Assembly (NCBI GenBank): GCA_028716365.1
Contig: JAQUPZ010000002.1
Location: 124,001 to 188,000 of the forward strand
Source of the DNA: Kiritimatiellia bacterium
GTDB taxonomy: Bacteria; Verrucomicrobiota; Kiritimatiellia; UBA8416; YA12-FULL-48-11
Length of the DNA: 64,000 nucleotides
Reading direction: 5' to 3'
Part shown: positions 7,955 to 30,152 of the stretch, one piece after another
Numbering within the stretch: position 1 is the stretch's first letter
How the letters are laid out: the number at the start of each line of letters is the position of its first letter
Translations under genes and position numbers: made by a program
Notes under the pieces: generated by a model
The model's database searches: none
The model's input: the letters and a program-made list of their open reading frames with translations, nothing else
What the model was told of the DNA's origin: nothing

Positions 7955-8076
7955 TACACATTCCCTGCTTTAATAACACGAATTATTAATACCACAGGGA
8001 AATTGTAACGAGCATCACAAGAAGGTTCAACTGCAAATCCAGAAAATGCAGGACACCCGATCACAAGGCAAAAAAG

Positions 8077-12511: not shown

Positions 12512-12513
12512 GT

Positions 12514-13788: not shown

Positions 13789-13929
13789 AACTTCCTCTCA
13801 ATGGAATTAGCCTCTCAGCAAGCGGGATCGCCCAACATGGGTACACCCCGGGCATAAATTGAATGCTTTGCACAAGCTGAACAATTGGCAGAGCATTGCG
13901 GCAGATAAACAGAAATGCCGCAGCCAGCA

Positions 13930-14214
13930 TCAGGCAACAGGCGGGCGGAAGATGGAGGAAACAAGCAATAGAGAATAGTGCGAACAACAAACAGGCAGTG
14001 TCGCCCCCTTATCGTTCGCTGAAATTGAAGTTAGATTTGAAGGAACATCCATGACAAAGGCATGACACAGACAGAAACAGTCATGGCCGGAATCATCTGA
14101 ACAACAGTCAGAATCGTGATCAGCTTGAAACACAATTACCGGGACAAAAAAGCAGGCCACCACTATAATCAGCAGTACCCTTAAACATAACATTATTCTT
14201 CTGTTTCTCATCAT
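13930..14214 (-). CDS. small Cys/His-rich membrane protein leading the czc operon
   Basis: 94 residues: a basic start, one hydrophobic segment (about 9-28), then a compact Cys/His patch, CCSDDSGHDCFCLCH, and a later CCSH. This resembles the short metal-binding proteins often found in front of Czc-type operons. The placement under its own promoter, 141 bases ahead of czcC, suggests a periplasmic metal buffer or sensor accessory. The start is uncertain: ATG at 14214 or the next codon, with no clear ribosome site. Confidence 0.55.
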   Translation of the reverse strand: MMRNRRIMLCLRVLLIIVVACFFVPVIVFQADHDSDCCSDDSGHDCFCLCHAFVMDVPSNLTSISANDKGATLPVCCSHYSLLLVSSIFRPPVA

Positions 14215-14305: not shown

Positions 14306-14410
14306 TTAACACTTGAAAATATATTGATTGCCACACGGGCAACCAGTAGATTTATCGTCGTCAACCAGCTCCCGTGGGACCGGCTGTACCGCAAGCTGAT
14401 CCACAACCAT
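14306..14410 (-). CDS. possible 34-residue CPCG microprotein overlapping the end of the lipoprotein gene
   Basis: In the +1 frame relative to the lipoprotein gene, ATG 14410 opens a 34-residue frame ending at TAA 14308-14306. It overlaps the last 50 bases of the lipoprotein gene. Its C-terminal half reads DDDKSTGCPCGNQYIFKC, with ordinary codons continuing well past the lipoprotein stop, which is why it looks translated. Three cysteines sit in a CPC plus terminal Cys arrangement, plausible for metal binding. Alternatives are a C-terminal extension reached by frameshift, or chance. Confidence 0.4.
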   Translation of the reverse strand: MVVDQLAVQPVPRELVDDDKSTGCPCGNQYIFKC

Positions 14411-15338
14411 CTGTCCCATAAGCCTTTGAAATTGCCGTCTTGGCAACATCATAGGCAAAAGGACGTCTGTCCAGAACCTTCCGGTCCTTGTCCAGAATGT
14501 ACAAGAACGGCACGGCAGGTACGCCGAAATATTTTGTACTCACCGATTTATCAGCATCAATTACAACAATACTTCCGGGTGATTTCTCAGAATAAAAGCC
14601 CTTAACCTCATTCACACCCTGTCCGAAACTTACAATTACACGGCTGAATTTCTTGTCCGCAAAATCTTTTTTAAGTTTTTCAAGATCATTAAGTGCACTT
14701 ACACTGAAAACACATGCTGTAGAACTGAAAAAAAGGACTGACCCATAATTACTGCACAGAGAACTCAGCGAAGTCTCTTTACCTTCCATATCCGGCATTT
14801 TAATGTCAGGGATGATTTCCCCCACATTGACAAGCTGAGGTGTATACATTTTCTTTTCCACACTGGGTCCTTCAGACAGGATTTCTGAAACCATGGTTCT
14901 GACCCTGTCCGGCTCACACCCGCCTGCAAAACGTACAATTCCATCCTTATCCAGAATGTAAAGTGTGGGGTAAAAGAAGAACTCTAATCTGCCGGCAATA
15001 GCGCGGTCATTGTCCAACGCATAATTAATATTCGGGCTGATGTTCCTGGCTTTATCAAGCTTCTCCCCGGGAAACGGGACATCCACGCGACAAACAACAA
15101 CACCTTTTGGTTTGGTTTTGGAATACTCTTCAAGAAATGGAATAGCCTGATCCGTGCCCGGGCATCCCGGTATCCCGAATAATGCCACAATTACATTTCC
15201 TTTATTCTGCGCGATAACATCAGGAACTGGTGCCGCAACCAGCTCCTTTGTCTTGACGCCTTCACGACTGCAGGACGTGACACCAAGGATCAGACACAAC
15301 ACCAGCATTACAGGAGCAATCTTGTGTTCATTGTTCAT
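14361..15338 (-). CDS. lipoprotein with two thioredoxin-fold domains
   Basis: 325 residues from ATG 15338 (AAAGGTGG upstream; a GTG two codons earlier is possible). A lipobox LGVTSC places the lipidated Cys at 23. Domain 1 (about 30-150) has IPGCPGTDQA where thioredoxins have CxxC and keeps a Pro in FFYPTLY. Domain 2 (about 165-310) is TlpA/redoxin-like with SSTACVFSVSAL and VPAVPFLYIL. Both lack a CxxC pair, so disulfide exchange of the usual kind is doubtful. The tail reads CGSACG, like tails elsewhere in this operon. Last full-size gene of the ArsR-headed operon, 84 bases after hgcB. Confidence 0.78.
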   Translation of the reverse strand: MNNEHKIAPVMLVLCLILGVTSCSREGVKTKELVAAPVPDVIAQNKGNVIVALFGIPGCPGTDQAIPFLEEYSKTKPKGVVVCRVDVPFPGEKLDKARNISPNINYALDNDRAIAGRLEFFFYPTLYILDKDGIVRFAGGCEPDRVRTMVSEILSEGPSVEKKMYTPQLVNVGEIIPDIKMPDMEGKETSLSSLCSNYGSVLFFSSTACVFSVSALNDLEKLKKDFADKKFSRVIVSFGQGVNEVKGFYSEKSPGSIVVIDADKSVSTKYFGVPAVPFLYILDKDRKVLDRRPFAYDVAKTAISKAYGTDGCGSACGTAGPTGAG

Positions 15339-15422
15339 AACCACCTTTAAATTACTTCACCATTTACAGATTAACAAGAAAACTATTGCCGGAAATACAG
15401 CGAAATGCGATCCGGTATGATA

Positions 15423-15704
15423 CTACGAACAGCTGCAATCCTTGCTCCCACAACACTCACCACCGCCGAGTACTCCATTAATAATTCCCGTGGCACAGCC
15501 AACACCACTGTTAACCGAAAGTGCACAGACCGGACAGTTTTTTGAACATGCACCACATTCCATACAGGCATCCCGGTCACTTATCAAAGCTTTTCCACCC
15601 TCGATGGAAAAAACGGCATGAGGACATACAATCTCACACATACCGCAACCAATACATTTTTTGTCGTCCAACTTCAAAGTTGTAACATTGGATAAATACT
15701 TCAT
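15423..15704 (-). CDS. hgcB: mercury methylation ferredoxin HgcB
   Basis: 93 residues. It reduces the corrinoid of HgcA during Hg(II) methylation. Two 4Fe-4S motifs: Cys17/20/23/27 and Cys47/50/53/57, the second within CMECGAC, the HgcB signature. Cys70 sits where the strictly conserved extra Cys of HgcB is expected, and the tail has the vicinal pair Cys84-Cys85, thought to bind Hg(II). The tail is richer than usual, with further Cys90 and Cys92 (CCGSKDCSCS). GGAGG precedes ATG 15704, 16 bases after hgcA. The pairing with hgcA and the tail make an ordinary ferredoxin unlikely. Confidence 0.93.
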   Translation of the reverse strand: MKYLSNVTTLKLDDKKCIGCGMCEIVCPHAVFSIEGGKALISDRDACMECGACSKNCPVCALSVNSGVGCATGIINGVLGGGECCGSKDCSCS

Positions 15705-15720
15705 TTAGAAACCTCCGTAA

Positions 15721-16776
15721 TCACAATAAACCGGCTTTAATCCACAAGGCAATACCAATAACCAGTAACAGAATCTGGACGGGAATTGCATAACGCATTT
15801 CACGTTTTACTCCAGATTGCGATGTAAAAGTCGAACAACCGGTAAAATTCATGGCTATGAACGAGATAATTGCCAGAATTATCGGCAACCAAGCCCATGC
15901 TTCCAGCGGAAAATGAATACCCAGGGTGCTTCCACATTCGCTAAGCACAAGAATACCCCAGATTATAAAACCTACCCACATTCCTTTTATTGAAAATGCT
16001 TTCCCCGGCAACCAGGGTAAAAGCGCCGGGCACAGAATACTGCCCGCAAGAAACGTGGAAAGCACGATGATAAGCGCCATAAATCCACGTGTACAAAGAA
16101 GATTTACATCATAGCCTGTCCCGACAATTCCGGACAGGGCAACCATTACCAGACCAAGCAGAAAAACATGCGGAGCCCACTGAATAATCTCAACGGGAAC
16201 CACCACCAGGCGATCGAGGAAATCGAACCGGACACGTCTCATTTCGGGTGTTGTCTTCATTCCAGCCTTAAGAAAATTCTTTATATCGGACGCCCTGACA
16301 GGCCCATAGATGACCTGAAATCCGCAATCTCCCTTTACCTTATGAGCTGCAACACCAGGGGCAGAAAGCTGGGGAAGAATCAACTTGCGATGAGAAACCA
16401 TTTTATCAAGGCCAACACTTCGAACTCGTCCCACTATTTCCTCTGTACCAAATGTGCCCTTCCCCGCCGAACACCAGACATTGACGCCTTTTGTATCCAG
16501 TACAAGTATCCATACATCAAGTCCTTCGAGTTCCTTCCTTAAGTTATCAAAAGAAAGTTTATAATTTGCCGAAACAAGAACCGGAGATGTCGCATCTGGA
16601 CTGCCAACTACATACAGGCCGGGCTCCACAGCATAATCCATCCTGCTTATGCTCAAACGAACCTTTATGGCTCCCATGATATCTTCAGAGGTAAGTGAAG
16701 TCGAGACACGTGGGATCTCCTCACCTTGAGACATAACGGAACCAACAATCCAATGCTGTTGCTGAAAAATATTCAT
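15721..16776 (-). CDS. hgcA: mercury methylation corrinoid protein HgcA
   Basis: Membrane corrinoid protein that transfers a methyl group to Hg(II). ATG 16776 gives 351 residues; a frame-extending TTG at 16833 would overlap the preceding gene and has no ribosome site. The corrinoid-binding domain (about 30-180) carries the cap-helix motif NVWCSAGKGTF, with the cobalt-facing Cys at 102. Published consensus is N(V/I)WCA(A/G)GK; here Ser replaces the first Ala. Four or five hydrophobic segments follow from about 187 to 348, and the conserved FTGCSTFTSQSGVKREM lies near 311-327. CdhD/AcsC-type corrinoid proteins lack this Cys motif and membrane domain. It lies 32 bases after the FGE-like gene and 16 before hgcB. 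Confidence 0.94.
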   Translation of the reverse strand: MNIFQQQHWIVGSVMSQGEEIPRVSTSLTSEDIMGAIKVRLSISRMDYAVEPGLYVVGSPDATSPVLVSANYKLSFDNLRKELEGLDVWILVLDTKGVNVWCSAGKGTFGTEEIVGRVRSVGLDKMVSHRKLILPQLSAPGVAAHKVKGDCGFQVIYGPVRASDIKNFLKAGMKTTPEMRRVRFDFLDRLVVVPVEIIQWAPHVFLLGLVMVALSGIVGTGYDVNLLCTRGFMALIIVLSTFLAGSILCPALLPWLPGKAFSIKGMWVGFIIWGILVLSECGSTLGIHFPLEAWAWLPIILAIISFIAMNFTGCSTFTSQSGVKREMRYAIPVQILLLVIGIALWIKAGLL

Positions 16777-16808
16777 ATTCACCACTAAATGGGGTTGGCC
16801 ATGATTCT

Positions 16809-17531
16809 CTACCCGTTCTTTGATTTTATCCAAACCACGCGGAAACCGAAGTTTTGGGCGCGATCATCCGGCAAGGCGCTGTAGCGGTTGGCTGAGCGGC
16901 AATAGGGCGGCGGACACTTGAAACAGCCGCCGCGCAGAATCCGCTTTTCGCCGTTCAGCGGACCGTCCGGATCTGTCTGCTCGTTTGACGGATAGGGCCC
17001 GTCCCAGTCCTGGCACCACTCGAACACGTTGCCGTGCATGTCATACAGGCCCCAGGCGTTCGTCGCTTTCTTACCCACCGGATGCGGCTGGCCACCGCTG
17101 TTGCCGCTATACCACGCCAGCCGTGCCAAGTCCGCTTCGGTTTCTCCATCGGAAAAAAGTCCCGACGAACCGGCGCGACAAGCGTATTCCCATTCGGCTT
17201 CGGTCGGCAGACGAAAGTACCCGTCCGAAAACGCTTCGGCAAGTTTTGCGATGAATCGTTGCGCATCCATCCAACTGACATCCGTCATGGGGACCTCGGT
17301 GTCCATGGCTCGCGGTGATATATCGCCCACCAGTGCGGCCCATTGCGCACGCGTGATCGGTGTGACGGACATCCGGAAATCGCGGGTCAGCATGATCCGG
17401 CGCTGCGGCGCTTCTTCCGCTTCATGCCCCGCTTCGGTTTCCGGGCTGCCCATGCAAAACGCCCCTGCGGGAATCTCCTGAAAACTCAACGGGATGTGTC
17501 CTTTGAGCGTAAGCATCAGGCGATCGCTCAT
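16809..17531 (-). CDS. formylglycine-generating-enzyme (sulfatase-modifying factor) family protein
   Basis: 240 residues from ATG 17531 (GAAAGGAAG upstream); an upstream in-frame codon at 17615 would overlap ACR3. The FGE-sulfatase fold is clear: FCMGSPETEAG, RLPTEAEWEYACRAG, GLYDMHGNVFEWCQDW, LRGGCFKC and NFGFRVV. Cys206 and Cys211 (C-x4-C after RGG) align with the two copper-ligand cysteines of true FGE, which most FGE-fold proteins lack; Cys203 is extra. True FGE uses O2 and Cu(I) to make formylglycine, which is odd next to an anaerobic methylation system. Base composition differs: two 60-base samples are about 62-65% G+C against about 47% in a sample of hgcA, suggesting later insertion. 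Its substrate is unknown. Confidence 0.85.
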   Translation of the reverse strand: MSDRLMLTLKGHIPLSFQEIPAGAFCMGSPETEAGHEAEEAPQRRIMLTRDFRMSVTPITRAQWAALVGDISPRAMDTEVPMTDVSWMDAQRFIAKLAEAFSDGYFRLPTEAEWEYACRAGSSGLFSDGETEADLARLAWYSGNSGGQPHPVGKKATNAWGLYDMHGNVFEWCQDWDGPYPSNEQTDPDGPLNGEKRILRGGCFKCPPPYCRSANRYSALPDDRAQNFGFRVVWIKSKNG

Positions 17532-17563
17532 GAATCGCTTCCTTTCATAACTTTCTTTTTTGT

Positions 17564-18646
17564 TCAGATGGACGCCGGAGTGAACCAGTGTTTCGTCCGG
17601 TTGCAGACATTGCAAACCGACAACATCACCGGCACTTCAACAAGTACGCCGACAACAGTGGCCAACGCGGCTCCTGATTCGGCTCCAAACAGTGTTATGG
17701 CAACCGCAACCGCCAACTCAAAGAAATTACTGGCGCCGATCAACGCACCGGGTGCCGCAATATTATGCGGTACACGGAACCACTTCATCAGCCCATAGGC
17801 CAATGAAGAGTTGAAATAAACCTGGATCGTAATCGGGACCGCTATCAGGAGAACGTGTGTCCATGTGCGGGTTATATTATCGGCCTGGAATGCGAAAATC
17901 ATAACCAGCGTTGCCAGTAAAGCGATAATGGTGATCGGATGAAAGAACGGCAGATACTTATTTTCGAACCAGTCGTTGCCCATATACTTCAATAGCACGG
18001 TTCGACTTAAACTACCCAGCGCCAGCGGAATAACGATAAAGGCAATCACGCTGTAAAAAAGTACCGGATACGGTACAGTCAGATTGCTGGCCCCACTGAC
18101 AAGCAGACCGACAATCGGAACGAACGCAACCAGCATGATCAGATCGTTAATGGCCACCTGAACCAGCGTGTACGCCGGATCACCTTCGGTCAGGTACGAC
18201 CACACAAACACCATGGCTGTACACGGCGCGGCAGCCAGTATAATACAGCCAGCCAGGTATTGATCTGCCAGATCAGCACCTATTATGGGCAGGAAAAGAT
18301 GCTTGAAGAAAATCCAGCCCAGCAGGGTCATTGAGAGCGGTTTCACGATCCAGTTGACGAAGATTGTAATCAACAGACCTTTTGGCCGCTTTCGAACTCC
18401 AAGGATACTGGTGAAATCAATCTTGAGCATCATGGGATAGATCATAAGCCAGATCAGAACGGCTATTGGAAGATTGATCTGGCTGTTACTGCCGAACTCT
18501 ATGGAACGCACAGCCCCTACGAATCCCGGCGCCATCTTGCCAAGAACCACACCCACCACCATGCATGCGGCAACCCATAGTGTAAGGTAACGCTCAAACA
18601 CATTAGTCAGTTTCCGCTTATTTGCGGAATCCATTTCATTACTCAT
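17564..18646 (-). CDS. arsB: ACR3-family arsenite efflux permease
   Basis: 360 residues, about ten transmembrane segments. The ACR3 hallmark APCTAMVFVWSYL places the conserved As(III)-interacting Cys at 142. NFFELAVAVAI near residue 300 holds the conserved Glu. Extrudes As(OH)3, and in some members Sb(III), using the proton gradient. It shares the ArsR-headed operon, the normal setting for this transporter. It is followed within 32 bases by the FGE-like gene and then hgcAB, which is not a usual arrangement. No arsC arsenate reductase gene is present in the window. Confidence 0.94.
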   Translation of the reverse strand: MSNEMDSANKRKLTNVFERYLTLWVAACMVVGVVLGKMAPGFVGAVRSIEFGSNSQINLPIAVLIWLMIYPMMLKIDFTSILGVRKRPKGLLITIFVNWIVKPLSMTLLGWIFFKHLFLPIIGADLADQYLAGCIILAAAPCTAMVFVWSYLTEGDPAYTLVQVAINDLIMLVAFVPIVGLLVSGASNLTVPYPVLFYSVIAFIVIPLALGSLSRTVLLKYMGNDWFENKYLPFFHPITIIALLATLVMIFAFQADNITRTWTHVLLIAVPITIQVYFNSSLAYGLMKWFRVPHNIAAPGALIGASNFFELAVAVAITLFGAESGAALATVVGVLVEVPVMLSVCNVCNRTKHWFTPASI

Positions 18647-18683
18647 AATTAGATATATCCCCTTCCTTTAGTCTTTCTTGCCT

Positions 18684-19538
18684 TCAGGCTCGTTTCAACA
18701 AGGCGGCTATGTCTTCCATTTCACAAATCTTACTCTTGTCTAGAATATCCACAAAATCTTCCCTGTCTCGAATCGACCGCAAATTATCTGTCATCGCACG
18801 AATGGCAGAAAAGATGGCGATTGCCGGCAGGCTCACTCTTGCGACTCCAGCATCCTTAAGGGCTTTAACAGATAACGTACGAATGTTATAGGGTAGTCCA
18901 GCCGCTATCGTGATTGGTCCCTGAATCTTACTCATAAGGAACCTGACTTCCTCCATCGTTGCAACCGCCGTGACAAACGCCAGGTCAGCACCTGCGGCAA
19001 GATACGCATTGGCACGCTGAACTGCTTCTTTCAACCCCGCTTGGCGATCCGAGACGACCGCCAGCGCATCTGTTCTACCATTGATGACAAGTTCCGAATT
19101 ATTTGACTTCTTCGCGGCCTTCCTTGCATTTGTCAGCTTCTCAACCATCACATCGCACGCTACAATACGTTTTGGGCCAGGCTGTCCGAGAACCTGATCC
19201 TCAAGATTGACTCCAGCCAGACCGGCTTCCACGTAAGCGCAAATAGTGGCGGTAATGGTTTCCGGACCACCAAACCCGTCCTCGCCATCCGCCATGACAG
19301 GAACCTTGACGGCGTTGACAATGGCTCGTGACATGTTCAGATTGGCTTCCATACCAAGGTCGGCTTCCGCGGGCCGGACGGCCGCCACGGCCATACTGAA
19401 ACCAGAACACTGCACGGCCTTGAAGCCAAGGCTCTCGATAATTCTGGCGCTGATAGGATCAAATGCGTCCGGCATCACCAGCGTCGCTTTCGCCAGGATC
19501 AACTCACGCAGACAACGGCTCTTCTCTGTATTGTTCAT
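18684..19538 (-). CDS. isocitrate lyase / PEP mutase superfamily enzyme
   Basis: 284 residues forming one TIM barrel. Metal and substrate motifs: MADGEDGFGG (82-91), GVNLEDQ (109-115) and INGRTDA (152-158). The catalytic KKCGH loop of isocitrate and methylisocitrate lyases is missing, and so is the EDK...NS signature of PEP mutase. The sequence around LEDQVLGQPGPKR is closest in style to carboxyphosphonoenolpyruvate phosphonomutase-like or oxaloacetate decarboxylase-like members. It acts on an alpha-keto or enol acid with Mg2+; the exact reaction is not determined. It sits directly before the arsenite permease gene in an ArsR-headed operon, which makes arsenic-carbon chemistry worth considering but unproven. 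Confidence 0.8.
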   Translation of the reverse strand: MNNTEKSRCLRELILAKATLVMPDAFDPISARIIESLGFKAVQCSGFSMAVAAVRPAEADLGMEANLNMSRAIVNAVKVPVMADGEDGFGGPETITATICAYVEAGLAGVNLEDQVLGQPGPKRIVACDVMVEKLTNARKAAKKSNNSELVINGRTDALAVVSDRQAGLKEAVQRANAYLAAGADLAFVTAVATMEEVRFLMSKIQGPITIAAGLPYNIRTLSVKALKDAGVARVSLPAIAIFSAIRAMTDNLRSIRDREDFVDILDKSKICEMEDIAALLKRA

Positions 19539-19593
19539 ATCTACTTAATTTTTTTCAGGGATCCAACGGATCCCTGACAGATTATCGTTTTCC

Positions 19594-20403
19594 TCAGCCA
19601 AGCCCCTTCGAACCACAACTACTACCGCAAGCTTGCAAAGACTTAACCAGTTGATCCTTACTTGTTACGCCTTTAAACGTACCTGCTATTCTACCCTGAG
19701 AAGTCAGGACTACTGTAACAGCCTCATCTGCTGTCATTGTCACATTAAGCTTCTCCAAGAATGCCTTGTTTTCAGCATTACCGGGATCAATAAATACCTT
19801 ATCGAAAGTATCCTTGTATGCCCCGTCCGCAAGAAAGGTATTCACTGCTTCTACGACTTGTTCCTTGCCCTTGGTAGACTCTCCCTGGATGCACAACACC
19901 ACATTTTTACCGTCCTGCAGCAATTTCAGACATTGGGTGGCTTGCTGTGATAATATCGAGTCAGACAGTTTCTTTTCATCCGGATCAGTTTCGAATACTC
20001 CTGTCACCACATCATTTGGCGCAAAAACTATAAGAAGAGGCATCGGCATTCTTTCGGGAGCCATCCTATACTTCTGTAATAAACTTTCCGATGTAGAGGC
20101 AAGGACATCCGCCATAACAAGCTCCACTTTACCGGCTTTATTCTTCTTGAGAACTTCCACCGCCTTCTGAACTGAACTTACCTTGGCGTTTTTCTCCTTG
20201 TACAACAGAAGACAAACATATTTTCCGTCTTTCTGCAGTTTTTCCATCGTCATAGCTGTGTCACTAACGACAGCACTCGATTGATCAGCAGAAAATACAG
20301 CGGTTGCGCCAATTAAACCTCCCGTTATCAGCCCGCACAGAAGATATACATACAATCCGGTTCTCCAGCGTAGTGATTCAAACACATGTCTTTTCATATT
20401 CAT
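19594..20403 (-). CDS. secreted tandem thioredoxin-like protein with Cys tail
   Basis: 269 residues from ATG 20403 (GAGGGC upstream). A hydrophobic segment (about 16-38) is a signal or anchor. Two repeated thioredoxin-like alpha/beta units follow (about 50-145 and 155-260), with YVCLLLYKEKNAK and NVVLCIQGESTKG in equivalent places, neither with CxxC. A cis-Pro-like MPMPLLIVFAP is seen in unit 1. The tail ACGSSCGSKG resembles that of the operon's terminal lipoprotein. It follows ccdA by 44 bases, so it may receive electrons through CcdA. I do not recognise a named family. Confidence 0.65.
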   Translation of the reverse strand: MNMKRHVFESLRWRTGLYVYLLCGLITGGLIGATAVFSADQSSAVVSDTAMTMEKLQKDGKYVCLLLYKEKNAKVSSVQKAVEVLKKNKAGKVELVMADVLASTSESLLQKYRMAPERMPMPLLIVFAPNDVVTGVFETDPDEKKLSDSILSQQATQCLKLLQDGKNVVLCIQGESTKGKEQVVEAVNTFLADGAYKDTFDKVFIDPGNAENKAFLEKLNVTMTADEAVTVVLTSQGRIAGTFKGVTSKDQLVKSLQACGSSCGSKGLG

Positions 20404-20447
20404 AATTTGCCCTCGAATGATTAACACTTCTAAAATTTTTCCTTTCA

Positions 20448-21146
20448 TCAATGCGCGATATAGATAAGCCAGAGTCCACCTGCCAGGACGAGAACTCCGC
20501 AAATACGCTTGACTATGACAAGCCCTCTGGACTTTTCATTCCAGTGGAGAAAATGCTCAACAACTTCCGTGCTGGTTCCTGCAAGTATAATAACGGAACA
20601 GTGGCCAACCCCATAGGACAGCAATATGGATGCGGCATACAAGGGCGCCTGGGCAGACATCTTGAACGTAACCGCCAACATCGGGGCCATGTATGCAAAG
20701 GTACACGGACCAAGCGCCACACCGAAAACCAGCCCCAGAATAAAAGCCGCCAGAAAACCTTTGCTTTTCATACCCGGCTGAACCGCGTCCGGTAATGGAA
20801 TACGGATAGCATCCAGAAGATAAAGTCCCACTACAAAGAAAATCACGGCAACGAAATAGTTACCATACCGGCCGACATCACCCATCATTCGCCCGGCAAT
20901 GGCAGTAATCACGCCAATGGCCGCAATGGTAATGAGAATGCCCACGGCAAAAAGGGTAGAAGTCCAGAACGCCCTGCGCATTGTGACCACACCCTGCCCG
21001 CTGATAAATCCCACTATGAGCGGTATGCTGGAAAGGTGACATGGGCTCAAAATCACGCTGAGAATCCCCCAGATAAATGAAGCCCCAAGCGCAATCAGCG
21101 GTGAGCCCTCGACCGCATGAGTAAGAGATACGAACAGTTGCTCCAT
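20448..21146 (-). CDS. ccdA: CcdA/DsbD-type transmembrane thiol-electron carrier
   Basis: 232 residues, six predicted transmembrane segments. The two essential cysteines lie in LSPCHLSS (Cys36) and LGPCTFAY (Cys148). The protein carries reducing equivalents from cytoplasmic thioredoxin to thioredoxin-fold proteins outside the inner membrane. The operon offers several exported candidates: the membrane thioredoxin fusion, the tandem thioredoxin-like protein and the lipoprotein. CcdA is also common in arsenic operons with a small thioredoxin. It starts 14 bases after osmC. Confidence 0.9.
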   Translation of the reverse strand: MEQLFVSLTHAVEGSPLIALGASFIWGILSVILSPCHLSSIPLIVGFISGQGVVTMRRAFWTSTLFAVGILITIAAIGVITAIAGRMMGDVGRYGNYFVAVIFFVVGLYLLDAIRIPLPDAVQPGMKSKGFLAAFILGLVFGVALGPCTFAYMAPMLAVTFKMSAQAPLYAASILLSYGVGHCSVIILAGTSTEVVEHFLHWNEKSRGLVIVKRICGVLVLAGGLWLIYIAH

Positions 21147-21160
21147 GGTACTCCCCTGAT

Positions 21161-21613
21161 TTATTCTTCGATAACTATTTCCGGCTCCACAATAATTTCC
21201 GACTTCACAGAATTTGCGACCAGGCTATACTTCTGCGCCGCTTGAAGAGCTCGACGCACCCGGGTTTCGATAACATTTCCGGGGTCACCACCTGCTGAGA
21301 CATGTATCACCGGATGAAAACAAAGACGGGTGAAGATTTCCGTGCGGTCAATCTCGATTAACTTGGTGCCTTCGGTACGGCACTCGTAGGAGATTAATTT
21401 CAACTTGAACCGTTCCGTTGCCCATATGAACATCATCATTACACATGTATTCGCGGCGGCCACAAATGCATCTTCGGGCGTTAAAACCCCTGCATGACCC
21501 TGAGCATCTGGTGGAGCGGAAAACTTCATCTCCGGGCCGTTTCCCATGGTGAGATGTCCCCAATGTTCGCCAGTCCAACGGACTATTGTGGAATATGTTG
21601 CGGTCTTGCTCAT
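21161..21613 (-). CDS. OsmC/Ohr-family protein
   Basis: 150 residues with the OsmC fold. The two family cysteines are present, Cys57 in AANTCVMMMF and Cys78 in ISYECRTEG. OsmC and Ohr reduce organic hydroperoxides using these thiols and lipoyl cofactors; other members have unknown substrates. A lipoyl-domain protein encoded three genes upstream would be a logical electron donor, but that is inference. Its start overlaps the preceding DGC gene by four bases, indicating translational coupling. Confidence 0.85.
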   Translation of the reverse strand: MSKTATYSTIVRWTGEHWGHLTMGNGPEMKFSAPPDAQGHAGVLTPEDAFVAAANTCVMMMFIWATERFKLKLISYECRTEGTKLIEIDRTEIFTRLCFHPVIHVSAGGDPGNVIETRVRRALQAAQKYSLVANSVKSEIIVEPEIVIEE

Positions 21614-22335
21614 AATTTTGCCTCTTGATTCCAGAACCTGGTGTATTCGACTAAAATCTCTTTTCGGTAATTCTCCCCGGACTCCACCGGTACGGGATTA
21701 TAGATCTTTGCCGTTTCCAGTATTTCTTGAGCAACGTTTGCATCCGGTTTACGGCCCGACTCGTAAAACTTCTTAAAAATTAACGGCAATGCCAGCATTT
21801 CGATCGTCTTACCATCAATAAGGAGTTTCGTAACGGGTACACCTGAGCCGCAGGAACATGTCTCCTGCCTCTCTGTCTTTTTTGCAGAAGGAGCGCCTGT
21901 TTTAACGGCCGCTGCTGGATTTCCCTCTATGCCCAGAACCTTATCCACAAGTCCGGCCAGACGCTCAGCAACCACCTCCACCACCAGTCTCCCGGCTTCA
22001 TTGAGACGACGTCGGCCTTCCGGTTTTGCCAATCCCAATTCTGTAACGAGTTCATTAACGACTATACTTGCCGCCGGTTTACCTGAATGCATTTCTGTCG
22101 CACGCGCAGCGCACTTCAAGTCACAGCCGTCCACCGTAATGGTTGGATGGAAACGTGCAAAAGTCCTGTCTCCTTCGCCACCTGCAAGGAAAAGCGGCAA
22201 GCAAATAGTCACGGTGTCATCCGGCCGCAACTCATGCAATACCTTAAGCGCGGCGAGTCGAGTCACTGTACCCTCGGCCAATTCCTCACCCGAACATGCG
22301 ACAATCCCTGCCTTGCGTTCCGGTAAATCAACCAT
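21610..22335 (-). CDS. DGC-domain (putative zinc-binding) protein with C-terminal extension
   Basis: 241 residues from ATG 22335, overlapping the previous stop by eight bases with GGAGACAAC as ribosome site. The N-terminal DGC domain (about 5-145) has Cys14 in VACSGEE, Cys45, and the namesake VDGCDLKCAAR (Cys71, Cys75). A linker with TCSCGSG follows, then a small alpha/beta domain with VTKLLIDGKTIEMLALP, resembling a degenerate redox domain. DGC proteins are of unknown function; their conserved cysteines suggest metal or sulfur handling. One of three DGC genes here. Confidence 0.75.
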   Translation of the reverse strand: MVDLPERKAGIVACSGEELAEGTVTRLAALKVLHELRPDDTVTICLPLFLAGGEGDRTFARFHPTITVDGCDLKCAARATEMHSGKPAASIVVNELVTELGLAKPEGRRRLNEAGRLVVEVVAERLAGLVDKVLGIEGNPAAAVKTGAPSAKKTERQETCSCGSGVPVTKLLIDGKTIEMLALPLIFKKFYESGRKPDANVAQEILETAKIYNPVPVESGENYRKEILVEYTRFWNQEAKL

Positions 22336-22756
22336 TGTTGTCTCCTTTGCCTGACTGAGTAACCTCAACAACAATCTCAGCGACTTCGCGGGCTATTACC
22401 TGCGCAAGCTTGATACCCTGATCGTTCAATTCGGCTATGCCATCGGGTTTTAAGTCTTTATGACGCCGGAAGGCATCAAATACAGTCATCTCCTTGGCAA
22501 TAGTACCGCCACTTTGCCGAACCATTTTAGCGGCGCACATTTTTGTGCACCCATCTATAGTCACAGTTTGGTTCCGGGTGACAATGTCCCTCGCTTCGTT
22601 GTCACCCAACACCAATTTAGACAACGCAACTAGTCGCGTATCACCAGGCTTCATGTTGTCGCAAACCTCGTAAGCAGCTTCGCGGCTTACCGTGCCGAAC
22701 GGCTTGCCTATGCCACTGCAAGGTACAATCACAACCTTTTGTGACCCACTACTCAT
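22328..22756 (-). CDS. DGC-domain (putative zinc-binding) protein
   Basis: 142 residues, a single DGC domain. Conserved cysteines: Cys13 in VPCSGIG, Cys32, and IDGCTKMCAAK (Cys70, Cys74). The start overlaps the GcvH-like stop by four bases (ATGA type), so the two are likely made in fixed ratio. Its arrangement with the lipoyl protein suggests a joint role in thiol-bound metal or sulfur transfer, which is inferred. Confidence 0.82.
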   Translation of the reverse strand: MSSGSQKVVIVPCSGIGKPFGTVSREAAYEVCDNMKPGDTRLVALSKLVLGDNEARDIVTRNQTVTIDGCTKMCAAKMVRQSGGTIAKEMTVFDAFRRHKDLKPDGIAELNDQGIKLAQVIAREVAEIVVEVTQSGKGDNNG

Positions 22757-23214
22757 GATTCCTTTAACTCCTTTTCAACCTGGGATTTCATTACGGAAAC
22801 ATATGATTGCGGATCCAGAAGTTTCGCTTTATCAGCTTCCCACTGGACGGTTTCTATTTCCATTATCCACCCCTTGTCATATGGATCTTGATTGACCAAT
22901 TCAGGATTAGCATCGAGTGCATGGTTTACTTCCACCACAGTGCCATTAACGGGTGACGGCAACACCAGTAATGTCTTAATCGTCTCAACTTCCGCAAGGT
23001 CACCTTCAGTCACGAGCTTGGTGCCTGCAGGTTTTGCCGTTACAAATGCAACATCACCGCTATGCTGCTGCATGTAGTCAGTAAGACCGACCCGAATCCG
23101 GTTCTTATCCTGCGGCTGCATCCATAACACCCATACGCCGTCTTTGCTATAATGACGATCCGTTGGCACTCGGAACGTAAATTTGCCGGAAGTTGTTTCC
23201 AGATAATCAGACAT
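22753..23214 (-). CDS. GcvH-like lipoyl carrier protein
   Basis: 153 residues with the GcvH/lipoyl beta fold. The lipoylated lysine is Lys80 in VETIKTLLVLPSPVNG, aligned with the ESVK site of glycine cleavage H protein. No gcvP, gcvT or lpd genes are present, and neighbours are DGC and OsmC proteins. A role in glycine cleavage is therefore less likely than a dedicated lipoyl carrier, as known for the LbpA proteins of the sHdr sulfur pathway. Dihydrolipoyl dithiols also bind As(III) and Hg(II) tightly. The exact partner is unknown. Confidence 0.85.
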   Translation of the reverse strand: MSDYLETTSGKFTFRVPTDRHYSKDGVWVLWMQPQDKNRIRVGLTDYMQQHSGDVAFVTAKPAGTKLVTEGDLAEVETIKTLLVLPSPVNGTVVEVNHALDANPELVNQDPYDKGWIMEIETVQWEADKAKLLDPQSYVSVMKSQVEKELKES

Positions 23215-23241
23215 AGCATCTCCTGTGTTTCTTTTGCCTCA

Positions 23242-23475
23242 TCATGCCAGCATCTTTTTAATCTCTTCCAATGGTGGTACGCGGCCAGCCACCTTCACCA
23301 CACCGTCCACCACCAAAGCAGGAGTCATCAACACACCAAAAGACATAATTTTTTGAAGCTCCGTTACCTTTTCCAATTTGTATTCAAGTCCCATAGCCTT
23401 GGCCGCCTGTTCCGTTGTCTCCATCAATGCAGAGCATTTGGCACAACCTACTCCGAGAATTTGTAATGTCTTCAC
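23242..23475 (-). CDS. small redox-active thioredoxin (MTH895/TIGR00412 type)
   Basis: 77 residues, a minimal thioredoxin fold. The active site is GVGCAKCSAL (Cys11, Cys14), with cis-Pro in LMTPALVVDG and GRVPPLEEI near the end. Such proteins recur in arsenic operons and next to permeases or CcdA. It is cytoplasmic and a possible donor to CcdA. It lies 27 bases before the lipoyl protein gene. Confidence 0.88.
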   Translation of the reverse strand: MKTLQILGVGCAKCSALMETTEQAAKAMGLEYKLEKVTELQKIMSFGVLMTPALVVDGVVKVAGRVPPLEEIKKMLA

Positions 23476-23522
23476 GACTCCTCCTTCTTAATTAGCAATG
23501 TTAGTTTCAATCTGCTTTAAGG

Positions 23523-24992
23523 TCATTTCGGGATGCACTCACCTATTTTACAGGCTTTTTTGATTTGCTCTTTCGAAAGTGCCATCTTGTCTGCAAGGGC
23601 TTTATGAATCGTGATCATCTCCCCAGTTTCCAGCGGGTTCGCTTCGACCCACTTCTTCAGATTTTCAGGTGTGGTAAAGAATCCCTGATGGAAACATCCG
23701 GCCGAAACCCGCTTGCCATCAGGTTTCGTACGCTGTCCAAACCAGGCCACTGCCGTATCCGGATCCAACGATGCCACACTGCCGCTGAGAATCTTTATGA
23801 TAACTTTTTCCCCTGTCAATCGGTCCTTCTCATGTATTTCAATACTTTGACCAGTACGCGCAGCCACTCCCAGGGCACAATGTGAACAACAACCCCATAT
23901 CTTCGCATCATCTTCAGTAACTTCTGGAGCCTTAGTAACTCCCGAAGCATCAGTAACCTCTGGAGCCTCTACTGATTCTTGCGAACAACAACCTGCGAGC
24001 TTCCCTTCAAGCGTAATTTTCGCGGCATCTTCATAATAAACAGCGCGATCGCAAAATCCACACTTGTTCGCCAATTCCTTCTTTTGAAGTTCAGCCAGGT
24101 CCAATATATTCCCTCCACTTGACTGACGTTCTTTCTCCGCAGCTTCTTTACCTGCAAATGCTTTTATTGTGGGTCGTCCTGCCTTCGCATCTATGCCATA
24201 CACATAGACCGCATCACTGATCGGGACAAGATTGCCAGTGGCCCAATCGGTCACCGATACCTTCTTCTCGAACCCTGTCTTGTTCTCTGTCAGGCATGAG
24301 TACATGACAAAGTAGTGGTGCATACCGCACAACCGTACGTCGCCCTTTGCGGTCTTTACAACAACCTTCGTCTTCCCGTTTAAATCACCGTCGCACATGA
24401 AACAGATGGTATCTTTAGCGCGGGTGTCCTTTTGTGCGGGTTCCCACCGGCTGAACGACGGCGTTTCCTTAACACCAAGATCGACCCCAAGCTCTTTCCA
24501 CTTTGCCAGGATATCTTCCCTGGAAAAGAACCCCTCATGGCGGAACAATTCCTTGCCAGTCGCATCATAAAATATCTGTGTAGGGATAAGATTGATTTTA
24601 TATTTATCCCCGGCACCCGGATTTTCCCATACGTCAATAAACTGCACGTCCATTTTCCCGGCATAAGTTTTCTTGAGCTCTTTCAGAATCGGAGCCATCA
24701 ATTTGCAGGGAATACACTTCGTCGCACCCAGGTCCACCAGGCGCGGTATTTTCTCTGTCTGCTCTGTCCCCAGAACATCCGTTTTTTTCGCACCGTAGTC
24801 AGCCAACGAAGGTACTATCAAATCAGCAGGTTTTGAGCTCGATACCTTTTGGCGGGCATTCTTGACAATAAATACCCCAACAACGGCCACAATCAGTATT
24901 ATCCAAATCCATTTGCCTGGCCCGTTACAACAACTACCGCCACCACAACTGCAGGCAGGACGTTCATTCTTGTTATCTTTTTCGTCCGTCAT
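23523..24992 (-). CDS. membrane fusion protein: thioredoxin + NosL-like + MerB-like (organomercurial lyase) domains
   Basis: 489 residues from ATG 24992 (AAAGGAG nine bases upstream; ATG 25001 is too close to it). In order: a Cys-rich N-terminus (Cys14, 16, 21, 22); a transmembrane helix 28-43; a thioredoxin domain about 82-172 with TKCIPCKLMAP (Cys93, Cys96) and cis-Pro137; and a NosL-like domain about 193-302 with CFMC (197/200), CGMHH (222-226), Cys233 and a GGNILDL end. A short Cys segment follows (311/314, 335/336). The C-terminal domain about 361-472 follows MerB: CSHCALG (Cys372 at the Cys96 position), AGCFHQGFF (Cys433 at Cys159) and ITIHKALADK. MerB Asp99 is replaced by Gly375, so C-Hg cleavage is uncertain. 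The MerB match is from memory of the family. Confidence 0.75.
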   Translation of the reverse strand: MTDEKDNKNERPACSCGGGSCCNGPGKWIWIILIVAVVGVFIVKNARQKVSSSKPADLIVPSLADYGAKKTDVLGTEQTEKIPRLVDLGATKCIPCKLMAPILKELKKTYAGKMDVQFIDVWENPGAGDKYKINLIPTQIFYDATGKELFRHEGFFSREDILAKWKELGVDLGVKETPSFSRWEPAQKDTRAKDTICFMCDGDLNGKTKVVVKTAKGDVRLCGMHHYFVMYSCLTENKTGFEKKVSVTDWATGNLVPISDAVYVYGIDAKAGRPTIKAFAGKEAAEKERQSSGGNILDLAELQKKELANKCGFCDRAVYYEDAAKITLEGKLAGCCSQESVEAPEVTDASGVTKAPEVTEDDAKIWGCCSHCALGVAARTGQSIEIHEKDRLTGEKVIIKILSGSVASLDPDTAVAWFGQRTKPDGKRVSAGCFHQGFFTTPENLKKWVEANPLETGEMITIHKALADKMALSKEQIKKACKIGECIPK

Positions 24993-25018
24993 GGCATCCA
25001 TCTCCTTTCATTATTCCT

Positions 25019-25396
25019 TTAACAAACCAGTTTTGGGACTCCAGCCGCAGTCACTTTGACTATCGCTTCCGGTACAGGCGGCGTTTTCCCCTTCTCCATT
25101 CCCAGATCAGCAAGCTGCAGGTGTTCGAATTTCTTGAATCCAGCCTCTTCCAGTGTCTTCTTAACGCAATTCAAAGGACAACCGTCAATCGCAAGGATCT
25201 TCGCGGCACTTCTGGTCGTTTCCATGATCCCGGATACGCGGCCGCCTATTCCGGCAAGGCAGAACATTTTCCCGGCCCCGTCTTTCGCAAGTTTCCGCGC
25301 AGCCTGATCGGCAATTGCCCCCACATCAGCCGCTCCTGAACATGCAAAAATCAATTTCGGAGCAGTACCACATGCACATGCTTTGTTCTCACTCAT
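25019..25396 (-). CDS. DGC-domain (putative zinc-binding) protein
   Basis: 125 residues. The N-terminus adds ACACG (Cys7, Cys9) before the DGC domain, which has FACSGAADVG (Cys19), Cys46, and AIDGCPLNCVKK (Cys73, Cys77). It is the first gene after arsR, 49 bases on, and the shortest of the three DGC proteins. Function unknown; metal or persulfide binding is inferred from the cysteines. Confidence 0.85.
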   Translation of the reverse strand: MSENKACACGTAPKLIFACSGAADVGAIADQAARKLAKDGAGKMFCLAGIGGRVSGIMETTRSAAKILAIDGCPLNCVKKTLEEAGFKKFEHLQLADLGMEKGKTPPVPEAIVKVTAAGVPKLVC

Positions 25397-25445
25397 TTTT
25401 GGACTCCTTTTTACACCAATAATTTCTTTAACTCTCTGTCCGTAA

Positions 25446-25763
25446 TCATACCGCCTTCAGGTTTGTATCCCTTATTTTCGCCTCCGCCCTGACAACTTCT
25501 ACAGCGCATTCAAACGCCTTCAGAATGCAAGGTGTCTGAAGATGGTAGAAAACCTTCATCCCGTTCCGCCTGTCGCTCACAATTCCCGCTTTTTTCAGCA
25601 TTGCCAGATGCCGGGAGATGTTCGACTGGTCGATATCCGCCAGTTCATTCAGTTCACATACACACCGGTCCCCATCGGTCAGAGCATTAACAAGCAAGAC
25701 GCGCACAGGATGAGCCAGCGCCTTCAGAATATCCGCTCGAACTTTTGCCTGTTCATATTTCAT
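25446..25763 (-). CDS. arsR: ArsR/SmtB-family metal(loid)-responsive repressor
   Basis: 105 residues, winged helix-turn-helix. The recognition region reads QSNISRHLAMLKKAG (46-60). The first helix of the DNA-binding unit carries GDRCVCELNEL, with Cys34 and Cys36 in the CxC that binds As(III)/Sb(III) in classic ArsR (ELCVCDL). Cys79 and Cys86 near the C-terminus could add ligands. Binding of the thiophilic ion would release the operator. It heads the operon, and its own promoter contains a matching dyad (separate entry), so it should repress itself and all downstream genes including hgcAB. The mRNA is predicted to be leaderless. Confidence 0.93.
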   Translation of the reverse strand: MKYEQAKVRADILKALAHPVRVLLVNALTDGDRCVCELNELADIDQSNISRHLAMLKKAGIVSDRRNGMKVFYHLQTPCILKAFECAVEVVRAEAKIRDTNLKAV

Positions 25764-25769
25764 TTAAGT

Positions 25770-25798
25770 ACTATATGCGCATAAGCGCATAAGGTCAA
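25770..25798 (-). promoter_or_regulatory. arsR operon promoter with operator in the spacer; predicted leaderless start
   Basis: Minus strand: TTGACC (25798-25793), a spacer of exactly 17 bases, and TATAGT (25775-25770). The predicted +1 is the A of the arsR ATG at 25763, so there is no room for a ribosome site. The dyad TATGCGC-N4-GCGCATA (25774-25791) fills the spacer and touches the -10, where a bound ArsR dimer would block polymerase. Confidence 0.8.
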
Positions 25799-25907: not shown

Positions 25908-27566
25908 ATGAAGATTGTTATTATTGGCGGTGTCGCAGGCGGTGCATCTGCAGCGGCACGCGCACGACGGCTTGATGAGAAAGCGGAAATAATTGTCCTC
26001 GAACGCGGTAAACATGTGTCGTTTGCCAACTGCGGGTTGCCATACCACATCGGAGGAATAATTGAAGACAGGGATGACCTTATTTTACAAACCCCGCACA
26101 GCCTCAAGGCTTCGCTCAATCTCGATGTCAGGGTTGGTCATGAAGTAACGGGCATAGACAGAACTAAACATACCGTAACTGTCAAGGAACTTGAAACAGG
26201 TCGTTCTTATATTGAACCCTACGAGAAACTTGTGTTGTGTCCGGGTGCAAGCCCGATAACACCGCCCCTGCCGGGAATCGATCATCCATCAATTCTGGTT
26301 CTTCGGAACATTGATGACATGGATAAAATCAAGGCAAAGATAGATGCCGGGGTAACAAGCGCCGTGGTAATCGGCGGCGGCTATATCGGCATTGAAATGG
26401 CTGAGAACCTCAGTGGACGCGGACTGGAAGTTGAACTGGTCGAAATGGTTGACCAGCTTATTCCACCTCTCGATCGCGAAATGGCACGCGAGCTGGAAAA
26501 TCACGTAACCGCTCATGGTATCAGACTTCATCTCGGAACAGCCGCAACGGCATTTCGAGATATATCAGGTAAACTTTCAGTTGAACTCAAGAACGGGGAA
26601 CTCCTCAAGACAGACCTTGCGATTCTGTGTGTTGGAGTACGACCGGAAACACAGCTCGCCAAACAGGCCGGTCTCAAAATCGGTTCATGCGGCGGAATTA
26701 AGGTCAACAGCCAGATGCAAACTTCAGATCCTGACATTTATGCGGCAGGAGATGCCGTTGAAGTTGTCGATACAATAACAGGTTTACCTGCATTAATTCC
26801 GCTTGCTGGACCTGCGAACCGGCAGGGCCGGATCGTTGCTGATAACCTGATGGGTATTGCCAGCAAATACACGTCAACCCAGGGCACAGCTATTGTTAAG
26901 GTCTTCGACATGACCGCAGGAATGACTGGCGCAACAGAAAAAACTTTAAAACGAACCGGCATAAAATTCTGCAAGATTTATATTCATCCATCCAGCCATG
27001 CCGGTTACTACCCGGGTGCAACGCCAATGCATATCAAGCTCCTGTTTGATCCCGACAATGGGTTAGTACTTGGTGCCCAGATAACCGGTTTTGATGGTGT
27101 TGATAAACGTCTCGATGTTTTCGCGATTGCGATTCGGGCTGGCATGACAGTATATGATCTCAAGGACCTTGAACTTGCTTATGCCCCACCCTACGGATCT
27201 GCCAAAGACCCTGTAAACATGGCCGGATTCGTTGCCGAAAACCTTCTCAAGGGTAATGTCGAATTCTGGTATGCCGAAGATTATCCCGGTAAAACCAAAG
27301 ATGGATTGATCATTGATGTACGCGGTCCACAGGAGTTTGAATCGTGGCACATACCAGGAGCCGCCAATATGCCACTTGGAAAATTACGTAAACAACTTAC
27401 AGAATTATCTAAAGCGAAATCCATATATCTTTACTGTAAGGTGGGTTTCCGCAGTTACCTTGCCTACAGGATTCTCAAGCAAAATGGGTTCAAAAGCGTT
27501 GCTACCCTTGCCGGTGGTTCAATGACATTCTTTTGTTATCACAATACCAAAATAAATAAACTCTGA
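25908..27566 (+). CDS. CoA-disulfide reductase / NADH oxidase-like flavoprotein with C-terminal rhodanese domain
   Basis: 552 residues from ATG 25908 (GGAGG at 25896-25900). It has the FAD motif IIGGVAGGASAA, the redox Cys in SFANCGLPYH, the NAD(P) motif VIGGGYIGIEMAE, the FAD motif IYAAGDAVEV and a dimerisation domain to about residue 455. The last 95 residues are a rhodanese domain with active loop CKVGFR. CoADR-rhodanese fusions reduce CoA disulfide, CoA persulfide or polysulfide. It is transcribed divergently from arsR with 144 bases between the start codons; the arsR operator might also affect it. It supports the thiol-redox theme of the neighbourhood. Confidence 0.93.
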   Translation: MKIVIIGGVAGGASAAARARRLDEKAEIIVLERGKHVSFANCGLPYHIGGIIEDRDDLILQTPHSLKASLNLDVRVGHEVTGIDRTKHTVTVKELETGRSYIEPYEKLVLCPGASPITPPLPGIDHPSILVLRNIDDMDKIKAKIDAGVTSAVVIGGGYIGIEMAENLSGRGLEVELVEMVDQLIPPLDREMARELENHVTAHGIRLHLGTAATAFRDISGKLSVELKNGELLKTDLAILCVGVRPETQLAKQAGLKIGSCGGIKVNSQMQTSDPDIYAAGDAVEVVDTITGLPALIPLAGPANRQGRIVADNLMGIASKYTSTQGTAIVKVFDMTAGMTGATEKTLKRTGIKFCKIYIHPSSHAGYYPGATPMHIKLLFDPDNGLVLGAQITGFDGVDKRLDVFAIAIRAGMTVYDLKDLELAYAPPYGSAKDPVNMAGFVAENLLKGNVEFWYAEDYPGKTKDGLIIDVRGPQEFESWHIPGAANMPLGKLRKQLTELSKAKSIYLYCKVGFRSYLAYRILKQNGFKSVATLAGGSMTFFCYHNTKINKL

Positions 27567-27970: not shown

Positions 27971-27992
27971 TTTTTAATTACGGAGGAAATTA

Positions 27993-30072: not shown

Positions 30073-30152
30073 ACTTCTTCTACCAACATTGGGGGAAAAA
30101 GAGCAGACTTCTCATTTAAAAGCCTGGCCCTTGAAAGGCATTGAAAGAACAG

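Follow-up and report, generated by a model that had tools for sequence, protein, structure and literature searches.

Why should genes for mercury methylation lie in the same gene run as an arsenite exporter, a lipoyl carrier, and several cysteine-rich proteins? This question is raised by a locus on contig 2 of the 5.8-Mb genome of a Kiritimatiellia bacterium, within a stretch of 64,000 nucleotides that was analysed as a whole and is called the window here. The role of HgcAB apart from methylmercury formation is a long-standing question, and lipoate is a textbook target of arsenic. Sixteen close-packed genes, all on the minus strand, occupy positions 25763–14361 of the window in the order ArsR, DGC1, a thioredoxin–NosL/MerB fusion, a small thioredoxin, a GcvH-like lipoyl carrier, DGC2, DGC3, an OsmC-fold protein, CcdA, TrxX, a PEP-mutase-like protein, ACR3, an FGE/SUMF1-like protein, HgcA, HgcB, and a redoxin. 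The GcvH-like, DGC2, and DGC3 genes, often with the OsmC gene, are a conserved set (the module) that is often found beside arsenic genes, and this module is the new part of the finding. We tentatively read the run as an ArsR-headed ACR3 operon working as a dithiol relay, in which As(III), perhaps also Hg(II), would be captured by the predicted lipoyl arm and passed on; we place this reading slightly below an even chance. It is the best reading of a dedicated lipoyl protein that is often encoded near ACR3, has two poly-cysteine partners, and sometimes comes with its own reductase.

Protein families were assigned by comparing Pfam and NCBIfam profile scores with the curated cut-offs. The GcvH-like carrier (22753..23214; 153 amino acid residues; Pfam GCV_H, 104.5 bits) has a predicted lipoyl lysine, K80, which was kept in all 43 GcvH-like rows of the alignment and aligned with the VESVK site of the H protein 1onl. 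Its score of 97.1 bits was below the NCBIfam gcvH cut-off of 115.85, and two GcvH proteins above this cut-off are encoded elsewhere in the genome. The genome also encodes LipA (356.3 bits, above the cut-off), and an LplA/LipB-type protein adjoins it (C2:684136). A PF03099 match at window positions 30141–30929 was considered as a lipoyl ligase beside the operon; from its motif we take it to be a biotin ligase, and it was therefore not counted.

The partners of the carrier are rich in conserved cysteines. DGC2 (22328..22756; 142 residues; Pfam DGC, 54.1 bits) has C13, C70, and C74, which were present in 43 of 44 rows, the remaining row having a gap. DGC3 (21610..22335; 241 residues; Pfam DGC, 56.8 bits) consists of a DGC domain and a second domain, and its C14, C45, C71, and C75 were kept in 44, 44, 44, and 43 of 44 rows, respectively (one gap in the last case), and in 40 of 40 rows of alignment A3, which excludes L108, L117, and L128. 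In an AlphaFold2 model of DGC3 with a predicted local distance difference test (pLDDT) score of 88.6, the four cysteines are located at, or immediately beyond, the ends of strands 9–13, 41–45, and 65–69, and from these positions we infer that they form one site. The OsmC-fold protein (21161..21613; 150 residues; assigned by Pfam and alignments) has C57 and E47 at the positions of the peroxidatic Cys and the catalytic Glu in 31 of 31 rows. In the same 31 rows, His17 stands at the catalytic Arg of Ohr and Ser130 at the resolving Cys, both by weak alignments (E 0.43 to 6mjn for the Arg and E 0.0014 to 2d7v for the Cys). The absence of the Arg and the resolving Cys weakens the reading of this protein as an Ohr-type peroxidase.

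To find the module elsewhere, genome contigs were searched with a profile of a four-sequence DGC3 alignment, which gave 44 named loci. The module was present in 42 of them, representing about 12 phyla and including one archaeal locus (taxonomy taken from record labels and NCBI ranks; the bin labels of metagenome-assembled genomes (MAGs) may be wrong). L129 and L130, which had a weak match (E 1e-5) and neither GcvH-like nor DGC2 genes, were left out, and L128, a contig-end piece whose gene order was not assessable, was counted. Neighbouring matches were counted at E ≤ 1e-6 within the examined flank, some contigs being short: DGC2 and the GcvH-like protein were matched in 41 loci each, ArsR-type regulators in 33, the small thioredoxin in 31, OsmC in 29, ACR3 in 24, ArsC and CcdA in 13 each, lipoamide dehydrogenase (Lpd) in 10, HgcA and HgcB in 7 each, and ArsA in 5. 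Twenty arbitrarily placed 20-kb control stretches, taken from four related genomes and the own genome, contained no match to any of the families just listed and a single thioredoxin-domain match.

The gene order of the module was also conserved. The GcvH-like, DGC2, and DGC3 genes were co-stranded in all 41 testable loci and stood in this direct order in 34 loci, separated by no more than 555 and 908 bases between gene ends. Five loci had the order GcvH–OsmC–Trx3–DGC2–DGC3 (Trx3, the small thioredoxin), and two had the GcvH-like gene downstream. An Lpd gene immediately precedes the GcvH-like gene in 6 of the 42 loci (L088, L089, L090, L092, L093, and L109) and in a second copy of the cluster in the own genome, and the Lpd proteins of this copy, L089, L109, and L127, the four tested, all scored above the lipoamide_DH cut-off. 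In L125, L126, and L127, the GcvH-like, DGC2, and DGC3 genes occur in a Lokiarchaeota MAG and in Bacillota (Syntrophomonas and Formimonas), and OsmC was not found there; L127 is Candidatus Formimonas warabiya DCMF, a complete genome carrying the module. No published account of the lipoyl/DGC/OsmC module was found in the open-licence literature among the matches listed, nor was a published function of DGC-domain proteins; among those matches, "DGC domain" mainly meant diguanylate cyclase.

The second, diverged copy lies on contig 1 at about 441.5–459.4 kb. Its order is ArsR, ArsR, DGC1, fusion, Trx3, lipoamide dehydrogenase, GcvH-like, DGC2, DGC3, OsmC, CcdA, FMN reductase, ArsR, AhpD-like CMD protein, thioredoxin, CcdA, ArsA, zinc-ribbon protein, ArsC-like, TrxX, CMD, ACR3, methyltransferase, HgcA, and HgcB. 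The identities between the two copies were 70% for the fusion, 85% for DGC1, 92% for Trx3, 84% for the GcvH-like protein, 88% for DGC2, 85% for DGC3, 90% for OsmC, 90% for CcdA, 86% for TrxX, 93% for ACR3, 70% for HgcA, 75% for HgcB, and 61% for the nearer ArsR. The lipoamide dehydrogenase between Trx3 and the GcvH-like protein scored 491.6 bits (cut-off 408.8), ArsA scored 775.1 bits (cut-off 650), and ACR3 passed its cut-off with 368.4 bits, while the ArsC-like protein, with 156.6 bits, was below the cut-off of 174.3. The PEP mutase, FGE-like, and redoxin proteins of the window had no matches in this copy.

HgcA (15721..16785) is a corrinoid mercury-methylation protein with 445.9 bits against NCBIfam HgcA_corrinoid (cut-off 275), and HgcB (15423..15704) is a ferredoxin of 93 residues with 113 bits against HgcB_ferredoxin (cut-off 99). 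The cap-helix Cys motif of HgcA, N-V/I-W-C-x-x-G-K, is present as NVWCSAGK in the window protein and as NVWCAAGK in the 24 remaining rows of the 25-row alignment. Among the module loci, seven (L088, L093, L114, L120, L122, L123, and L124) had hgcA in the flank. In L088, from a Verrucomicrobia MAG, a single strand carries ArsR, Trx3, the GcvH-like protein, both DGC proteins, OsmC, the MerB-like fusion, CcdA, and HgcAB. The original prediction for this locus had called for a neighbourhood search for hgcA with DGC and MerB-like genes, and both L088 and the second own copy keep that combination; with the set in L088, it is not the case that no other genome keeps these genes together. Its view that the genes form one set is borne out by recurrence in the second copy and in other genomes, but the core is the lipoyl-carrier/DGC/DGC/OsmC module rather than mercury methylation, with hgcAB in 7 of 42 loci. 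The second copy, the lipoamide dehydrogenase in it, the PEP mutase, and the FGE-like gene of unusual composition were no part of that prediction. A simple "mercury methylation operon" was rejected because the module mostly occurs without hgcA (35 of 42).

The linkage was further surveyed in 345 genomes of the class, with hgcA counted at E ≤ 1e-40 and the module at E ≤ 1e-15. hgcA was found in 27 genomes and the module in 6, of which 5 had hgcA close by and one (G145) did not; the hypergeometric probability of this co-occurrence was 1.2e-5, with no correction for kinship. A sample of 387 genomes of the phylum, overlapping the class set, contained the module in 4 genomes, with hgcA beside it in 3. 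The 30 hgcA loci of the class (3 to 50 kb) had ACR3 and ArsC in 18 each, CcdA in 14, the small thioredoxin in 13, and the module in 6. On an HgcA tree of 25 rows, from which L047 and L049 were dropped as apparent duplicates of the L124 and L120 contigs, respectively, module linkage required 5 changes, at least 3 of which were forced by well-supported branches. On a module tree of 43 rows, hgcA linkage required 4 changes, all forced, gains and losses being indistinguishable. From these trees we infer repeated linkage of hgcAB to such modules. In L193, L194, and L197, hgcAB occurs with Trx3, DGC1 (78–81%), thioredoxin, and CcdA but without GcvH, DGC2, and DGC3, as a second, simpler thiol set.

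ArsR (25446..25763; 105 residues; Pfam HTH_5, 59.3 bits), the first gene of the run, has C34, C36, C79, and C86, which were kept in 27, 21, 23, and 27 of 33 aligned rows, respectively, and ACR3 (17564..18646; 360 residues), the arsenite efflux transporter, scored 364.4 bits against NCBIfam acr3 (cut-off 282.8). With a repressor of this family and an arsenite exporter in one co-directional run, the locus has the gene arrangement of an ars operon. The intergenic gaps range from −47 to 78 bases with the chosen starts; ATG starts at 22335 for DGC3 and at 15338 for the redoxin give gaps of −8 and 84, respectively. With these starts, the gap range of −8 to 84 in the original prediction fits, as do its place and strand, although we count 16 genes where it had 15. 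Upstream of ArsR, the predicted ArsR-operated promoter (25770..25798, minus strand; TTGACC-17-TATAGT) contains the near-palindrome TATGCGCTTATGCGCATA (25774–25791) in its spacer, which has no further occurrence in the window with ≤3 mismatches (0.03 expected). The same promoter and palindrome layout precedes the first ArsR in L120 and L124; in L122 and L123, the −35/−10 spacing is present and the symmetry is weaker. The site before the czc genes (14252–14224) matches at 9 of 12 positions. The 20 promoter-like sites in the region were not clearly above the 15.0 (standard deviation 3.9) in shuffled sequences.

A terminator-like hairpin (14325..14345, minus strand) was found by the terminator scan directly 3′ of the redoxin gene, the last gene of the run; the total of 13 terminator-like sites was no excess over the 12.1 in shuffles. 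Within the run, the space between TrxX and the PEP mutase holds a hairpin of −17.3 kcal/mol with an A-rich tail (19540–19600, minus strand), at the point where the gene content of the two own copies diverges. It was set aside as an intrinsic terminator because A, not T, follows it, and the scan did not call it; it may be a processing or attenuation site. Internal terminators or promoters had been named as what would split the run, and this hairpin leaves a single transcript less than certain. The whole run is likely one transcript, a predicted operon as judged from its layout.

These features can be arranged into a dithiol relay as follows. Metalloid binding to the ArsR cysteines would lift the repressor. 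The lipoyl arm would be kept reduced by lipoamide dehydrogenase in the second copy. The window copy lacks an Lpd of its own, which makes the neighbouring CoA-disulfide-reductase-like flavoprotein possibly its disulfide reductase; the reductant might also be an enzyme from elsewhere. The dihydrolipoyl dithiol would pick up cytosolic As(III) and exchange it with the three-cysteine site of DGC2, the four-cysteine site of DGC3, and the OsmC-fold protein, and ACR3 would be the exit step. The thioredoxin/NosL/MerB fusion, the small thioredoxin, TrxX, and CcdA would keep the membrane-side thiols reduced, and HgcAB would use the same thiol-bound metal pool. Reduced lipoate is described as the presumed arsenic target in PDH and KGDH in PMC6453569. 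In the relay, a dedicated lipoyl protein has seemingly been turned into part of arsenic defence, and the module gives DGC-domain proteins a clear context. The repeated tie of hgcAB to arsenite export and a dithiol carrier also makes testable the idea that HgcAB works on metal bound to protein dithiols. A bolder version, which we regard as a long shot, holds that the native HgcAB substrate is a thiol-bound metal(loid) from the lipoyl arm, that the GcvH-like/DGC/OsmC line delivers As(III) or Hg(II) to both ACR3 and HgcA, and that HgcAB forms one branch of an arsenic defence based on lipoate.

Several observations weigh against the relay. No ACR3, ArsC, or ArsA match was found in the flank of 18 of the 42 module loci, some on short contigs; OsmC was missing in 13, hgcA in 35, and Lpd in 32, and the window copy is among those without Lpd. 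The control stretches were drawn from the own genome and related ones and not from those that supplied the 42 loci. Of the five class genomes with both module and hgcA, four are members of a single family and hence not independent. The palindrome layout is clear in L120 and L124 only, and the second own copy has different palindromes. The DGC3 model had no match in the PDB at E ≤ 0.001 (best 0.02), and its four cysteines might instead coordinate zinc or an Fe-S cluster.

If the lipoyl arm did not carry arsenic, it could feed a lipoyl-dependent thiol peroxidase, with electrons passing from Lpd through the lipoyl carrier to OsmC, co-induction explained by the oxidative stress that arsenite causes, and the DGC proteins as accessories. 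Ohr enzymes take electrons from lipoylated proteins according to PMC5962072, the peroxidatic Cys and catalytic Glu are matched by C57 and E47, and the placement of Lpd immediately before the GcvH-like gene in six loci and the second own copy suits such a chain. We nevertheless consider it unlikely: His17 and Ser130, weakly aligned as they are, replace the catalytic Arg and the resolving Cys in all 31 rows, the same paper reports only residual activity for Ohr R19A, and the 13 loci without an OsmC match stand against 41 each with DGC2 and the GcvH-like protein. The lipoyl and DGC proteins might instead carry sulfane sulfur, supplied by the rhodanese-bearing flavoprotein, to form sulfide or thiolated arsenic and so detoxify As and Hg. 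GcvH-like, lipoate-binding carriers occur in sulfur oxidation, and the CoA-disulfide-reductase/rhodanese gene diverges from ArsR in the window. Lipoate acts in dissimilatory sulfur oxidation, as stated in PMC10332631. Against this stand a CoA-disulfide-reductase match in only 1 of the 42 module loci and the finding that, among the 20 window proteins scanned, none received an sHdr or Dsr name, a search that did not extend to the remainder of the genome; a sulfur carrier appears quite improbable.

A different doubt concerns hgcAB itself, which could be a mere neighbour, an hgcAB unit adjacent to an arsenic operon with no common chemistry, both kinds of unit being often mobile or ArsR-controlled. 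The 35 module loci without hgcA and the 24 of 30 class hgcA loci without the module fit this explanation, as do the strong hairpin that divides the run before the PEP mutase and the lower identity between the own copies of HgcA and HgcB (70–75%) than of ACR3 and OsmC (90–93%). Yet the linkage forms clusters and recurs on the HgcA tree as well as the module tree, and both own copies keep it. Moreover, ArsR control and an arsenic response of hgcAB have been published for Pseudodesulfovibrio mercurii (as cited in PMC10349881), which argues for shared regulation at least. We hold simple adjacency to be doubtful, and the dithiol relay remains our preferred reading.

The fusion (23523..25001) comprises 492 residues (488 if it starts at the ATG at 24989), carries a membrane helix at its N-terminus, and has Pfam matches to Thioredoxin, NosL (at the cut-off), and MerB. 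Its AlphaFold2 model, built from 47 of 120 listed relatives, had a pLDDT of 81.9, and its top PDB match by E-value was MerB2 (5c17). The MerB-like domain passed Pfam PF03243 (65 against 27) and missed both NCBIfam MerB cut-offs (31.5 against 200 and 28.9 against 193). In alignments to 5c17 and 5c0t, C372, C375, and C436 occupy the positions of C96, Asp99, and C159, respectively, the catalytic residues of MerB. Among 121 rows, made up of the query and its top 120 out of 1947 hits, C372 was present in 120, C436 in 121, and C375 in 120, the other row having a gap. The aligned solved MerB chains carry Ser at the Asp99 position (MerB2; sequence shown for 5c0t). No MerA above the cut-off was found in the genome; besides the Lpd of the second copy, one more strong flavoprotein disulfide reductase match, on contig 3, reached 332 bits against the MerA model, below its cut-off. 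The Cys at the Asp99 position, the missed cut-offs, and the absence of such a MerA led us to downgrade a demethylase role. The earlier suggestion that the product cleaves is weakened by the change at Asp99 and the two NCBIfam scores, although the C96 and C159 equivalents are kept. In both own copies and L088 the full fusion occurs together with module and hgcA; in L087, L098, and L099 it accompanies the module without hgcA.

The remaining thiol proteins of the run are DGC1 (25019..25396; 125 residues; Pfam DGC, 107.1 bits), the small thioredoxin-like protein (Thioredoxin_3; 23242..23475; 77 residues; GTG start; Pfam, 85 bits), whose CxxC cysteines were both present in 33 of 33 aligned rows, and the CcdA/DsbD transmembrane electron carrier (20448..21146; 232 residues; Pfam DsbD_TM, 51.7 bits). 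TrxX (19594..20403; 269 residues), with a hydrophobic N-terminal segment and a CGSSCG tail, matched no Pfam family and was named here from the thioredoxin-like look of its sequence; in L111, from a Planctomycetaceae MAG, four successive TrxX-like matches lie near the module (6232–9000). The redoxin (14361..15344; 327 residues; Pfam AhpC-TSA, 62.5 bits) has thioredoxin-fold domains and, by eye, a lipoprotein-like N-terminus. The PEP mutase/isocitrate lyase superfamily protein (18684..19538; 284 residues; Pfam PEP_mutase, 193.9 bits) was set aside as an arsenic enzyme, being absent from the second own copy and below every NCBIfam equivalog cut-off; genes of this superfamily near ACR3 also occur in L089 and L113, with a C-terminal piece in L045. 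The FGE/SUMF1-like gene (16809..17531; 240 residues; Pfam FGE-sulfatase, 153.9 bits) has a third-position GC content of 0.69 against 0.40–0.58 in the other 15 genes, and among the 30 class hgcA loci it was matched in the window locus itself only; it is probably a later insertion. In L088 an FGE-like match lies near hgcA on the opposite strand, and in the second own copy a methyltransferase fills the slot between ACR3 and HgcA.

Outside the run, the CoA-disulfide-reductase-like flavoprotein with a rhodanese domain (25908..27566, plus strand; Pfam and NCBIfam) missed the CoA_CoA_reduc cut-off (578.8) with 489.4 bits; its gene diverges from ArsR across about 144 bases and may share the control region. 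Two tandem, near-identical secreted-type proteins of 98 residues, both with GCCWGLREGTEWNEG, are encoded at 27674–28289 (plus strand). On the other side (11192–14214, minus strand), separate metal-efflux-type genes, HlyD-like and TolC-like, follow a small protein of 94 residues with nine cysteines; TolC and HlyD matches also lie beside hgcA in L196 and L202.

Compared with known systems, the locus is partly familiar. The original prediction knew of no description of the full combination; hgcAB beside acr3, arsC, arsM, and arsR has been described for several methylators (McDaniel 2020, PMC7438021; PMC10349881), whereas for the module itself the statement stands within the open-licence literature. 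In the published hgcAB–ars loci, as in the window run, ArsR, ACR3, and hgcAB stand a few genes apart, and the accessible parts of these papers mention no lipoyl carrier, DGC protein, OsmC, MerB-like fusion, or second copy, all of which are found here; "thioredoxin" in the available text of PMC7438021 refers to arsenate reductases. With glycine cleavage GcvH, the GcvH-like protein shares a lipoyl domain and a lysine that is modified there and predicted here; it differs in falling below the gcvH cut-off, and no GcvP or GcvT was found by Pfam among the 16 genes. The fusion shares with the MerB lyase the fold (5c17) and the C96/C159 equivalents and is distinguished by the Cys at Asp99, the NosL-like and thioredoxin domains, and scores below the NCBIfam MerB cut-offs. 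Systems of Ohr/OsmC, lipoylated protein, and Lpd have the same OsmC fold, a lipoyl carrier, and, as in some module loci, Lpd, but the module OsmC has both the catalytic Arg and the resolving Cys replaced. Finally, with ars operons of ACR3, ArsC, and ArsA, the run has in common the ArsR head and ACR3, and the second copy also ArsA and an ArsC-like protein; the window run, with no ArsC, ArsA, or ArsD among its 16 genes by Pfam, carries the lipoyl/DGC/OsmC module in its middle.

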